Source: an uncultured Oscillospiraceae bacterium
GTDB taxonomy: Bacteria; Bacillota; Clostridia; Oscillospirales; Oscillospiraceae
Direction: 5' to 3'
Assembly (NCBI GenBank): GCA_944387635.1
Contig: CALXFT010000009.1
Location: forward strand, 1-52,135
Length of the DNA stretch: 52,135 nt
The notes below the pieces were generated by a model, which made no database searches, had not been told where the DNA came from, and worked only from the letters and a program-made list of their open reading frames with translations. Position numbers and translations under genes: made by a program. Positions 10,377 through 14,127 of the stretch are shown in pieces (position 1 is the stretch's first letter; every line of letters starts with the position of its first letter).

Positions 10377-11099
10377 TTATTGGCAGCAAGATTCAATCCC
10401 GGCCTTCAGACGCCGGGCCAAGGTGCAGGTGACCTGGGCACAGCGGTGGGCGGCGATCCGCTCAAAGGTGGGATAGTCCATTTCGGCGCTGTCGTCGGCC
10501 TTGTCGGAAATGGCCCGGAGGATCACGAATGGCAGACCGTTGCGGTAAGCCGTCTGGGCAATGGCCGCCCCCTCCATTTCCGTACACAGTCCCTGGGTGT
10601 TGGCAATGATCTTCTCTTTCAGGTCAGCGTCCGCCACAAACTGATCTCCGCTGGCCACCCGGCCCAGATGGGTGTGACCGGGATGGACCTGCTCCGCCGC
10701 GGCGAAGGCGGCAGCCATCAGATCTTCGTCGGCGGGGAAAGCCGTCAAATCCATCCCAGGGACCTTGCCGAAGGGATAGCCGAACTTCCGGCAGTCAAAG
10801 TCATGGTACATGGCGTCCCGGCTCACCACCAGGTCTCCGATGTCCAGCTTGGGGCTCAGGGAACCGGCAATGCCCGTGTTGACCAGATGGGTCACCTGGT
10901 AGCAGTCGCAGAGGATCTGGGCGCAGATGGCCGCGTTGACCTTGCCCACGCCGCACTGGACCACCACCACAGGAAGGCCCTCCAGGGTCCCTTCGTAGAA
11001 GTCGCTTCCAGCCCATTTCCGGGACCGGGTTCCCTCCATCCGCTGCAGCAGAGTCTCCACCTCCAGCCACATAGCGCCGATAATGCCGAGTTTTTTCAT
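10377..11099 (-). CDS. mtnN: 5'-methylthioadenosine/S-adenosylhomocysteine nucleosidase
   Basis: A 240-residue Pfs/MtnN enzyme that cleaves adenine from S-adenosylhomocysteine and methylthioadenosine. The start MKKLGIIGAM with the acidic catalytic residue in EVETLL (about E13) is typical. NTGIAGSL (about 74), TEMEGAAIAQ (catalytic Glu about 173) and ISDKAD (catalytic Asp about 197) complete the active site. It begins 10 bases after luxS and is co-transcribed with it, supplying S-ribosylhomocysteine to LuxS. Length agrees with the family. The stop is followed within a few bases by the shared terminator. Confidence 0.95.
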   Translation of the reverse strand: MKKLGIIGAMWLEVETLLQRMEGTRSRKWAGSDFYEGTLEGLPVVVVQCGVGKVNAAICAQILCDCYQVTHLVNTGIAGSLSPKLDIGDLVVSRDAMYHDFDCRKFGYPFGKVPGMDLTAFPADEDLMAAAFAAAEQVHPGHTHLGRVASGDQFVADADLKEKIIANTQGLCTEMEGAAIAQTAYRNGLPFVILRAISDKADDSAEMDYPTFERIAAHRCAQVTCTLARRLKAGIESCCQ

Positions 11100-11109
11100 A
11101 AGCTCCTCC

Positions 11110-11586
11110 TTATTCCGGGTAGACCAGCCGGGAATCGCCGGCGGTTTCCAGCAGCGCGGCGTACTTGCCGCCCCAGTAATTCGCCATGGGCAGATTCATG
11201 TCCAGATAGTTGCCGCAGTCCTTCGCCGAGGCGCCAGGAACTTCCCCCCGAAAATCCCGGATAAAGCGGAAGCATTCCAGCACCAGAGGCAGAACTTCCC
11301 GGGAGCCGTAGTCCCCGGCCAGAAGCAGATAGAAGCCCGTGCGGCAGCCCATGGGACCGAAGTAGAGCACCCGGTCCTTCCACTGCGGCTCGTTGCGCAG
11401 ATAGGTAGCCGCCAAATGCTCGATGGTGTGCACTTCGGCGGTGTTCATGACCGGCTCGTCGTTGGGCTTGGTCAGCCGCAGGTCAAAGGTGGTGACGGTT
11501 TCCGCCCCCACCTTGTCCTTCCGGGAGACATACAGCCCCGGCTGAAGCCGGATGTGGTCGATAGTAAAGCTGGTGATTTTCTCCAT
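11110..11586 (-). CDS. luxS: S-ribosylhomocysteine lyase (autoinducer-2 synthase)
   Basis: A 158-residue LuxS that splits S-ribosylhomocysteine into homocysteine and DPD, the AI-2 precursor. The metal-binding HTIEH motif (His about 54 and 58) and the catalytic Cys in GPMGCRTGF (about 83) with the downstream metal Cys in AKDCGNY are all present. The open frame extends 87 codons further, but the ATG at 11586 has AAGGAG eight bases before it and lies just after a good promoter. First gene of luxS-mtnN. The cluster completes SAH detoxification and could also give cell-cell signalling. Confidence 0.96.
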   Translation of the reverse strand: MEKITSFTIDHIRLQPGLYVSRKDKVGAETVTTFDLRLTKPNDEPVMNTAEVHTIEHLAATYLRNEPQWKDRVLYFGPMGCRTGFYLLLAGDYGSREVLPLVLECFRFIRDFRGEVPGASAKDCGNYLDMNLPMANYWGGKYAALLETAGDSRLVYPE

Positions 11587-11840: not shown

Positions 11841-13841
11841 ATGGCAAAAGACGATTTCGACATTGACTTCGATTTTGAAAAAGAATACGGCTTAGATCCG
11901 GACCTGTTCGCGGATGCCGAGAAATATGATAATACCGACGTCGATCTTTCCCAGTTCTCCGACGAGGAGCTTGGCCTGTCCGATCTTCCTTCAGGCGACA
12001 CCCCGGCCGAAGGCCGGTCTCAGGGAGAGGATTTCGATCTGGACATGGATCTGGACGAGTTTCTGAACATGGGACTCGAGGACAACACCGGCGCCGAAGA
12101 AGACTTTGGCGTCCAGGAAGACGAGTTTCCGGACCCGTCTGAATATGAAGCAGAAGATCCCTCCCACTATGACGAGAACCTTACCCCGGAGCTTTCGGAG
12201 GAGGAATTGGATGAGGACCCGGATCTTTCTGACGAAGGATCTGAGGAAATCGACATGAACGAACGCTACGACGAGCAAGAGGATTTTGAGCAGGAGTCCG
12301 ACCCCGCGGAGGAAACCAAGTCCAAGAAAAAAGAGCGGGCCAAGAAAGAGAAGAAGCCCCGCAAGCCCATCAAGATCGCTACCCCCACCATCTTTACCAA
12401 ATTCTACGACCTGTACTTCGCCCCTGTGCTGAACAAGGGCGTCCCCGAGGAACCCCAGGACCCCTCTAAGCCCCGGCGCCGCCGCAGGAAGACCAAGATG
12501 CAGATCTTCAAGGAGGTCTATCTGCCGCCCATTGTGGTCAGCGTATGCCTGATCCTGGTTCTGTCCTTCGCCATCGGCTCTTTGTCCAACTTCATTGAGC
12601 AGAAGCGGATCGACCGGGATGTTGAGCAGAGCCGGAAAGAATCCTCCATCAGCGCCCAGGAGCAGGAAGAGGAGCGCCGGCTGGCCCTTATGGAGGAGGC
12701 CGAGCTGTACGCCCAGCAGTACAACTATGAAGAAGCCATCAAGTGCCTGGAGTCCTTCGGCAGTCTGGACGCCTATCCCGAAATGAGCGCCAAGCGGGCG
12801 GAGTACGCCAACGCCCAGAACCAGCTGGTGGAGATTCAGGACTTCACCCAGATACCCAACTTCAGTTTCCATCCCCTGATCGTGGATTCCGCCAGAGCCT
12901 TTGACGGCGACGAGAACAGCGGCCAGTACAACCGGAACTTTGTGCTGACCTCCGAGTTCTCCAAGATCCTGACCACTCTGTACAACAGCGGCTACGTGCT
13001 TGTGGACTTCGACAGCTTCACCACCAACACCGACGGCACCATTTATTCCAGCTCCATCTATCTGCCGGCGGACAAGAAGCCCTTCATGCTCACCGAGACC
13101 CTGGTCAACTACTTTCAGTACATGGTCGACGGCAACGATGACGGCACCCCCGACGCCTCCGGCGACGGCTTCGCCAACAAGCTGGTCCTGGACTCCAACG
13201 GCGATATCAAGGCCGAATATGTGGATTCCAGCGGCAACACCCTGATCGGCGACTATGATTTGGTCCCCATTCTGGAGTCCTTCATCGAGGAGCATCCGGA
13301 CTTCTCCTACAAGGGAGCCCGTGCCACCCTGGCCGTCACTGGCTACGAGGGCATCTTCGGCTACCGCTGCAACAGCACCTACATTTCCACCAAAGGCCAG
13401 ACCTACTACGACGAGCAGGTGGCCGGCGCCAAACAAATCGTCCAGGCTCTGCGGGACAAGGGCTACACCATTGCCTGCAACACCTACGGAAATGAGAACT
13501 ACGCCAACCTGAACGGCAACCAGATCAACACGGACCTGCAAAGCTGGAATCAGCAGATCATCTCCCTTATCGGCCAAGTGGATGTGTTTGTCTTCGCGCG
13601 AGCCAGCAATATCACCGACTACAACGGCAGTTCCTTTACCATTATGCATGAAAACGGATTCCGTTACTTCGTATCCAACGGAACCACCCCCTCCACCCAG
13701 ATCAACTCCACCTATGTGCGGCAGAACCGTCTGATGGTCACAGGCAACTCCATGGTCTGGAACTCGGACATGTTCAAAAACTATTTTGACTGCAACACCA
13801 TCGTGGATCTGACCGCTCGCGGCGGCAGCGTACCCAACTGA
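11841..13841 (+). CDS. Membrane-anchored NodB/polysaccharide-deacetylase-like protein, metal ligands lost
   Basis: A 666-residue protein in four parts. Residues 1-157 are extremely rich in Asp and Glu. Residues 158-225 are Lys/Arg-rich and basic. A single membrane helix lies at about 228-250. A coiled-coil stretch (about 255-330) leads into an extracellular domain similar to the long NodB-like deacetylases of Clostridia, recognisable by LVLDSNGDIKAEYVD and HPDFSYKGARATLAVTGY. Where active relatives have the Asp-Asp motif this protein has MLTETLVNYFQYM (about 416-428), and where they have the His-x-x-x-His motif it has CNTYGNENY (546-554). The metal-binding Asp and His residues are therefore replaced. 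Likely a binding or scaffold protein at the cell wall (inference). Confidence 0.7.
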   Translation: MAKDDFDIDFDFEKEYGLDPDLFADAEKYDNTDVDLSQFSDEELGLSDLPSGDTPAEGRSQGEDFDLDMDLDEFLNMGLEDNTGAEEDFGVQEDEFPDPSEYEAEDPSHYDENLTPELSEEELDEDPDLSDEGSEEIDMNERYDEQEDFEQESDPAEETKSKKKERAKKEKKPRKPIKIATPTIFTKFYDLYFAPVLNKGVPEEPQDPSKPRRRRRKTKMQIFKEVYLPPIVVSVCLILVLSFAIGSLSNFIEQKRIDRDVEQSRKESSISAQEQEEERRLALMEEAELYAQQYNYEEAIKCLESFGSLDAYPEMSAKRAEYANAQNQLVEIQDFTQIPNFSFHPLIVDSARAFDGDENSGQYNRNFVLTSEFSKILTTLYNSGYVLVDFDSFTTNTDGTIYSSSIYLPADKKPFMLTETLVNYFQYMVDGNDDGTPDASGDGFANKLVLDSNGDIKAEYVDSSGNTLIGDYDLVPILESFIEEHPDFSYKGARATLAVTGYEGIFGYRCNSTYISTKGQTYYDEQVAGAKQIVQALRDKGYTIACNTYGNENYANLNGNQINTDLQSWNQQIISLIGQVDVFVFARASNITDYNGSSFTIMHENGFRYFVSNGTTPSTQINSTYVRQNRLMVTGNSMVWNSDMFKNYFDCNTIVDLTARGGSVPN

Positions 13842-13853
13842 CGTTTCCACCCC

Positions 13854-13880
13854 ATGTGCGCCGGGATTCCCGGCGCACAT
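13854..13880 (+). terminator. Perfect 12-bp hairpin after the NodB-like gene
   Basis: The stem 13854-13865 pairs with 13869-13880 around a 3-base loop, 12 bases after the stop codon. The tail is CCTGTTT, only weakly T-rich, so read-through to the DUF1653 gene is possible. Confidence 0.5.
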
Positions 13881-13914: not shown

Positions 13915-14127
13915 ATGGACATTCGCCCCGGAACTTACCGGCATTTCAAAGGCAATCTGTACCAGGTCATCGGCGTGGCCAGCCATTCCGAGACCCTGGA
14001 ACCCATGGTGGTCTACCGGGCCCTCTACGGCCAGGGCGGCCTCTGGGTCCGCCCCGCCGCCATGTGGCTGGAAACCGTGGACCGTGACGATTATCACGGC
14101 CCCAGGTTCCGGTATGTGGGACCCTGA
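13915..14127 (+). CDS. DUF1653 family small protein
   Basis: A 70-residue cytoplasmic protein that begins PGTYRHFKGNLYQV and contains HSETLEPMVVYRALYG and LWVRPAAMW, the conserved core of the DUF1653 family. The family function is unknown; the compact beta-rich sequence suggests an SH3-like or ligand-binding fold (inference). It starts with ATG at 13915 after an AAAGAAGG site. It may be expressed by read-through from the gene before it, because only a hairpin with a weak tail lies between. Confidence 0.75.
   Translation: MDIRPGTYRHFKGNLYQVIGVASHSETLEPMVVYRALYGQGGLWVRPAAMWLETVDRDDYHGPRFRYVGP

Follow-up and report, generated by a model that had tools for sequence, protein, structure and literature searches.

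The stretch of DNA considered here (the window) is 52,135 nucleotides long and comes from an uncultured Oscillospiraceae bacterium (assembly GCA_944387635.1, contig CALXFT010000009.1, positions 1 to 52,135). An open reading frame (ORF) at 11841–13841 on its plus strand encodes a protein of 666 residues, which we describe as a membrane-anchored pseudo-deacetylase on the basis of the frame and its homologs; the single match to the protein in its own genome is its own gene, with no other family member present. The original prediction had proposed an enzyme-dead NodB-like deacetylase on a highly acidic membrane anchor, and both the ORF coordinates and the peptides quoted in that account were confirmed. 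The protein begins with an acidic region (residues 1–159; 11841..12317, plus strand, as are all features of the gene), which holds 65 Asp or Glu and 5 Lys or Arg residues for a net charge of −60 and is predicted to be disordered. Close to its start is a near-invariant N-terminal tag, DDFDIDFDFEKEYG (residues 4–17; 11850..11891). A basic patch follows (residues 160–182; 12318..12386; net +10), then a short juxtamembrane helix seen in the model (residues 184–197; 12390..12431), whose amphipathic character is only a possibility judged by eye and which coincides with a PN-F-KF-D-YFAP-like segment conserved in many members, and, ahead of the membrane, a second basic patch (residues 205–218; 12453..12494; net +6). 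The earlier description of about 155 acidic residues in the cytoplasm followed by a basic patch corresponds to this region of 159 residues, of which 65 are acidic, and to the two basic stretches after it. A Pfam match to YniB within the basic stretch, although it has the best E-value for the whole protein (0.0051), scores 17.1 bits against a cut-off of 27 and was taken as chance.

The hydropathy maximum marks a single membrane helix at about residues 231–249 (12531..12587), within a long helix of residues 219–292. Beyond it the model shows a helical stalk, presumably extracellular (about residues 250–330; 12588..12830), with a sub-threshold TPR_2 match at 282–304, and then a NodB-fold domain (residues 335–660; 12843..13820) that has lost its catalytic metal site. 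The tail would lie inside the cell, because the positive charge is on the N-terminal side of the membrane helix. In the full-length model the ten-residue means of the predicted local distance difference test (pLDDT) are 33–58 over residues 1–220, the helices at 184–197 and 219–292 are present and the ectodomain is ordered.

Modelled alone on 98 aligned relatives, the ectodomain reaches a mean pLDDT of 96.5 and a predicted template modelling score (pTM) of 0.93. In a Foldseek search of the Protein Data Bank (PDB) the top matches are PplD (6dq3, E 6e-6) and PgaB of A. actinomycetemcomitans (AaPgaB; 4u10, E 5e-5); four chains fall below E 0.001, two from each of these proteins. Structures of the pseudoenzyme BA3943 (6hm9, 6hpa) stand lower in the list, as does PuuE (3cl6, E 6e-3). 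A viral structure library returned one unnamed entry below E 0.001, which was of no use. The Pfam polysaccharide deacetylase family PF01522 scores 16.4 bits on the window protein, below the cut-off of 23.1; at E up to 1e-3 it matches 66 of the 98 aligned relatives but misses the window ectodomain when this is searched by itself. The NodB assignment is nevertheless secure, because it is carried by the fold of the model and by the family, and a family profile compared with solved CE4 enzymes places motif 2 in register (20 sequences found, PplD not among them). The model, then, gives an ectodomain in which a helical stalk carries a NodB barrel of the PplD/PgaB (NodB2) type. The same genome encodes four other NodB proteins over the Pfam cut-off, none of them inside the window (genome G000, contigs C98, C22, C39 and C2; loci L002–L005; here and below L labels denote locus rows and G labels genomes).

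The catalytic motifs were compared in an alignment of the window protein with 113 homologous ORFs (114 rows). Intact members mostly carry H-x-FFH at 340–344, SxDD at 418–421, HxxxH at 547–551, a YPYG-like motif at 585–588 and Arg at 630. In the window protein MLTETLVNYFQYM aligns with motif 1, for which the majority sequence is SxDDVNYY, and T420 and L421 stand in place of the two Asp residues (residues 418–424, TETLVNY for SxDDVNY; 13092..13112). Likewise CNTYGNENY aligns with motif 2 (majority S-H-x-x-x-H), with N547 and N551 for the two metal-binding His residues (residues 547–551, NTYGN for HxxxH; 13479..13493), and FARA replaces YPYG at motif 3 (residues 585–588; 13593..13604). This replacement of the Asp-Asp and His-x-x-x-His ligands on a NodB scaffold is what the original prediction had described. 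Taking the four positions together, 64 of the 114 rows are intact, 32 have lost all four and 18 are partly lost.

Two residues of the catalytic centre are retained. His344 (12870..12872), at the place of motif 5 and of PplD His105, is found in 75 of 76 intact members of the wider set described below, in 43 of 58 dead ones and in 31 of the 32 proteins with an acidic tail that were compared; Arg630 (13728..13730), probably at the place of PplD Arg302, is found in all 32 and in at least 90% of both intact and dead rows. The order H344, 420/421, 547/551, 585/588, R630, with motif 5 ahead of motif 1 and the Arg late in the sequence, is that of NodB2, a class for which motif 5 (MT5) is described as coming first (PMC10967932), and it parallels H105, D167/D168, H223/H227, S264 and R302 in PplD (PMC8807736). 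The equivalences that we draw with PplD follow from this order, not from superposition. By alignment, the protein has lost the metal triad together with the catalytic Asp of motif 1, whilst a His and an Arg of the catalytic centre remain. The earlier statement that all Asp and His ligands are gone is right for the metal and goes too far for the active site as a whole.

The positions around the lost ligands are themselves constrained. In the 32 acidic-tail proteins T418, T420, N423, Y424, D430, D438, A586, R630, V633 and G635 are invariant, position 551 is always Asn or Asp, and E419 (30/32) and T634 (31/32) are, like H344, near-fixed. Since the replacement residues of the pocket are fixed, this is not merely a dead pocket. 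The peptides that had been quoted as the scaffold of clostridial deacetylases, with H485, P486, D487 and F488, are conserved in intact and dead members alike. However, they lie between motifs 1 and 2, which are 126 residues apart in the window protein as against 55 in PplD, and they therefore mark this family and not NodB domains in general; the claim holds for the family alone.

For a wider comparison, a genus-wide search of 61 genomes, 55 of them with a match, supplied loci that were added to the family-wide set. Of 118 related loci the best 80 were retained, and the family-wide and genus-wide searches contributed 30 loci each. From 182 rows, 10 locus repeats were dropped by name, and removal of identical ectodomains then gave a set of 162, of which 76 are intact, 58 dead in the manner of the window protein, 24 dead in a second manner and four odd. 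The first tree, of the 114 rows, had placed the window protein in a 24-row clade without an intact site and with a Shimodaira–Hasegawa approximate likelihood-ratio test (SH-aLRT) support of 100. On the wider tree, which is of the quick kind, the dead group, first defined by exclusion, proved monophyletic: the 58 rows form exactly one clade, with no intact member and an SH-aLRT of 100. The metal site has thus been lost throughout one clade of Clostridia, whose records are mostly named Oscillospiraceae. The window-type dead form was not found among 27 loci of other genera fetched in the family-wide search, two of which show a different partial loss (L012 and one copy in L014). Next to join the dead clade are L010, which is intact, and the odd, partly dead L012, L167 and L170, followed by the intact L011 (support 90 and 74). 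The loss may therefore have begun slightly earlier, or long rows may have been drawn together, and its exact start is not sharply placed.

The second dead type forms a separate clade of 24 rows (L067, L074, L078, L081, L087, L089, L091, L092, L094–L099, L101–L104, L106, L108, L110 and L112–L114; SH-aLRT 77, or 99 without L067), with records mostly named Lachnospiraceae. Here the ligands were lost separately: the tetrad reads DNAH, ENEY, ENQY, DNEY or DANY, and at the motif-5 position no row has His, with Pro instead in 20 of the 24. On either tree at least four changes between intact and not-intact states are required. Two intact members (L105 and L109) come from Glutamicibacter (Actinomycetota) assemblies in a family that is otherwise clostridial, which may reflect transfer or mixed assemblies.

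Selection on the ectodomain was estimated from the ratio of nonsynonymous to synonymous substitution rates (omega), using pairwise Nei–Gojobori (NG86) values over the last 400 residues for pairs with 70–98.5% identity and a synonymous distance (dS) of 0.1–2. The median for the window-type dead clade is 0.094 (range 0.023–0.378, 24 pairs, the window protein itself being too distant for inclusion), against 0.154 for intact members (0.016–0.399, 18 pairs) and 0.101 for the second dead clade (0.034–0.157, 45 pairs). By this measure the dead ectodomain is under purifying selection, with omega as low as in its intact relatives. The comparison of orthologues that the original prediction had proposed therefore came out in its favour on both counts, a shared loss of the ligands and purifying selection.

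The acidic tail is confined to part of the dead clade. The pattern [DE]FDx[DE]FDF marks 30 rows, and the smallest clade containing all of them has 36 (SH-aLRT 99); its other six rows are four variants of the tip (L116, L123, L124, L145) and two genes truncated at the end of a contig (L055, L133). In the 22 dead rows outside this clade only 10–80 residues precede the membrane helix if the frame's first Met is taken as the start. The tail clade is nested within the 58-row dead clade, and for that reason we infer that the metal site was lost first and that the tail was gained once, later. The fusion that had been called unusual is real and specific to the 36-row subclade. In the 34 tails that could be compared, 148–285 residues precede the membrane helix, of which 24–37% (median 30%) are Asp or Glu. 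At the start of the acidic region stands the tip, with the consensus FDxDFDFEKEYG. F10 and F12 are present in all 32 acidic-tail rows, F6, D7 and D11 in 31, G17 in 29 and Y16 in 28. A near-invariant tip on a tail of variable length is typical of a docking peptide carried by a flexible spacer, which is how we read it. The value of omega is higher for the tail than for the ectodomain in 11 of 14 measurable pairs and is below 0.4 in all 14.

With the DNA patterns scanned, the tag was found nowhere else. There was no second copy in the protein's own genome at up to three mismatches and none in 299 other genomes of the family at up to one mismatch; this family sample held only six genomes of the genus, the protein's own included. 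A targeting signal common to other proteins is not supported by these scans.

Directly after the lost motif 1 lies DGNDDGTPDASGDG (residues 430–443; 13128..13169), which contains the loop D430-x-N432-x-D434-G-x-x-D438 (DGNDDGTPD). Its pattern, D-x-[ND]-x-[DN]-x3-D, is one that we take to be the form of the calcium-binding loops of EF-hands and dockerins. The pattern occurs in 49 of 58 dead rows, in 6 of 76 intact rows (L008, L009, L010, L011, L057 and L163), and in none of the 24 rows of the second dead clade or the four others. D430, Asn or Asp at 432, and D438 are present in all 32 acidic-tail rows and D434 in 29. Because six intact relatives carry the loop, a gain tied to the death of the enzyme was rejected; the distribution suggests instead that the loop predates the loss of the metal site and persisted afterwards. 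It possibly forms a second metal site. As it contains no His and is found in those six intact relatives, it is not a replacement for the catalytic site.

Upstream of the gene and divergent from it lie luxS (11113..11586, minus strand; PF02664 match and synteny) and, at 10377..11099 on the minus strand, a gene that from synteny we take to be an mtnN/pfs-type nucleosidase, a name not drawn from a family search. Downstream is a DUF1653 gene (13915..14127, plus strand; PF07866, E 1e-29) that recurs in some of the loci. In 10 of the 58 dead loci (L045, L048, L050, L053, L054, L118, L124, L126, L127 and L152) homologs of a gene with XRE and LiaF-type membrane domains lie just upstream in the same direction, the domains having been read on the L048 copy only; this neighbour appears more telling for a role at the envelope than luxS. 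A LURP-one-related (LOR) gene, identified by a match on the copy in L037 (2589–3062, minus strand), has homologs in 15 other non-repeated loci; it adjoins luxS and, in the loci inspected, lies between luxS and the dead gene on the strand opposite to the latter. The gene itself is overlain for most of its length by an antisense open frame of 629 codons (window 11991–13880, minus strand). Long antisense frames recur in relatives and are probably a by-product of codon usage. A search of the window for known RNAs, riboswitches included, gave none at gathering score.

The reading that we prefer, to which we would give about an even chance, is that the protein is a single-pass pseudo-deacetylase that binds the cell wall and whose tail recruits a cytoplasmic partner, so reporting or anchoring the state of the wall. 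The barrel may have lost all its chemistry. In such a scheme it would still bind, without cleaving it, a glycan or linkage unit of the wall similar to that of the intact members. The binding pocket would retain His344 and Arg630 and lie next to the calcium-type loop. The N-terminal peptide of the tail would dock a specific cytoplasmic protein, whilst the acidic spacer, the basic patches and the juxtamembrane helix would hold that peptide at the membrane. The protein could then link wall state to machinery in the cytoplasm, as a reporter or an anchor, in the manner of MapZ in streptococci. A much more specific version, in which the dead barrel is a MapZ-like beacon that reads glycan in a calcium-dependent way and the tail peptide brings in FtsZ or some other protein of division or wall synthesis, must be considered a long shot; if it is true, recruitment guided by the wall would have arisen here independently, from a pseudoenzyme. 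The absence of MinC was considered as support for such a role and set aside as non-discriminating: MinC_C scores over its cut-off in none of 61 genus genomes and none of 101 family genomes (with three short sub-threshold matches among the 101), as against 6 of 14 control genomes, and is absent with or without the tail.

Several observations weigh against the proposed wall-binding recruiter. The tail is missing from 22 of the 58 dead rows, so that the role of the ectodomain was initially independent of it. The fold match to PplD is moderate, with a TM-score of 0.39–0.40 normalised to the query and 0.67–0.68 to the target, a root-mean-square deviation of about 5.8 and an identity of 12–13%. With His344 and Arg630 retained, the domain could have some remaining or newly acquired chemistry. 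Neither the window's locus nor the majority of the other loci was found to contain the LiaF-type neighbour. Finally, the likeness to MapZ is one of layout only, and none of the five Pfam matches to the protein at E up to 1 is to the MapZ family.

Of the alternatives, the one best placed is that the barrel is still an enzyme, with a new metal-independent chemistry performed through His344, Arg630 and the fixed T418, E419 and T420. The precedent would be the allantoinase PuuE, described as a non-metal enzyme of the NodB superfamily (PMC10967932), and both the appearance of PuuE in the fold search and the near-invariance of these five residues in the acidic-tail rows speak for it. We nevertheless think it unlikely. 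His344 is missing in 15 of the 58 dead rows and so is not needed throughout, and the motif-3 stretch YPYG has also been lost. PuuE, moreover, keeps the motif-4 Asp and the motif-5 His; here D634, which we guess to be the catalytic Asp and which is present in 74 of 76 intact members, is Thr in 50 of the 58 dead rows.

A second possibility is that the protein regulates an active deacetylase, binding or titrating either the active enzyme or its substrate. Intact and dead members occur together in seven genomes of the genus sample (G160, G168, G170, G171, G189, G195 and G205), as the pairs L156/L160 with L179, L161 with L181, L163 with L146, L171 with L173, L168 with L169, L157 with L154 and L159 with L152. 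In locus L014 two copies of the family gene, one intact and the other partly dead (DQ, MxxxM), stand in tandem on the minus strand of a single contig, and the four other NodB proteins of the window's genome are possible active partners. However, that genome has no second member of the family, none of the four NodB genes is inside the window, and in the genus sample 35 of the 47 genomes with a dead gene show just one match. A regulator of this kind would have no need of an acidic cytoplasmic tail, and we judge it rather unlikely.

The conserved position of luxS raises the question of whether the protein is a partner of luxS and mtnN in autoinducer-2 (AI-2) signalling, perhaps acting as an AI-2 receptor at the cell surface. 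In favour of this, luxS was present in 23 of the first 24 loci (the last, L055, has no upstream sequence), and among loci with at least 1.2 kb upstream it is found in 39 of 55 dead loci and in none of 82 others, where some of the misses may reflect short flanks. In the genus sample it starts no more than 3 kb away in 31 of the 47 dead-gene genomes, G191 and G198 being counted as dead on the strength of their matches. Co-occurrence does not bear the partnership out. Of the 61 genus genomes 53 have luxS, 10 of them without a window-type dead gene (two of these, G158 and G181, have an odd, partly similar form), whilst among the 47 dead-gene genomes, which are drafts, luxS is on another contig in 10 and was not found in four. 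Since uvrB or DUF1653 often remains beside the dead gene where luxS is absent, conserved gene order is enough to account for the linkage, which we read in that way and not as partnership; a role in AI-2 signalling is highly improbable. Lastly, a former enzyme decaying without function, a notion that the lost catalytic residues and sub-threshold Pfam score might encourage, is refuted and deserves virtually no credence, given the open frame, the 58-row clade, the low omega and replacement residues such as T418, T420 and A586 fixed in every acidic-tail row.

In conclusion, the original observation is confirmed as real and is better supported than it was from the sequence alone. Its interpretation is supported in part: the shared loss, the purifying selection and the acidic tail are borne out, and the suggested role in glycan binding or regulation stands as a proposal. 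The whole dead clade, its intact relatives, the order of events and a second, separate loss together mean that the change from enzyme to receptor can be followed. The conserved N-terminal peptide offers a direct handle on the protein that probably partners this putative wall sensor in the cytoplasm of uncultured gut bacteria. CE4 pseudoenzymes as such are already known, in the literature searched as single proteins; what is new is this architecture, which is unusual and testable, and no description of it was found in literature searches aimed at it.

Among characterised proteins PplD (PDB 6dq3), a de-N-acetylase that acts on the linkage unit of a streptococcal wall polysaccharide, shares with the window protein the single N-terminal membrane helix, the extracellular NodB2 domain and the order of motifs. 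The intact relatives keep both motif-1 Asp and both motif-2 His residues, together with the motif-5 His in 75 of 76; the window protein differs from PplD in lacking D-D and HxxxH and in having the calcium-type loop and the acidic cytoplasmic tail. A NodB fold with lost or altered catalytic motifs is shared by BA3943 (6hpa, 6hm9), BA0150 (4m1b) and the probably inactive EcCDA (2VYO), given as altered or inactive CE4 members in their PDB titles and in PMC10967932 and PMC6115787. The accounts cited describe no acidic cytoplasmic tail for them, and the loss in the window protein is common to a 58-row clade standing beside 76 intact members. The mark of a CE4 pseudoenzyme, a fold under selection with the metal site lost in orthologues, is found in the 58-row clade, none of whose members is intact. 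BA0330 and BA0331 provide a functional precedent for a structural role: they are described as membrane-anchored wall lipoproteins with a NodB domain that stabilise the wall and cell shape and show no detectable deacetylase activity by assay (PMC4505593), and their homologue BC0361 is given as an example of NodB2 (PMC10967932). They differ in their lipid anchor and Fn3-like domain. A lipid anchor leaves no cytoplasmic tail. MapZ, for its part, is described as having a disordered cytoplasmic domain with helices, a conserved N-terminal stretch that binds FtsZ, one membrane helix, a pedestal and a peptidoglycan-binding domain (PMC7055233, PMC4931243). The predicted layout of the window protein is like that of MapZ from Streptococcus pneumoniae, with a disordered tail, one membrane helix and an extracellular stalk and head, but the extracellular domain differs, being here a dead NodB barrel.

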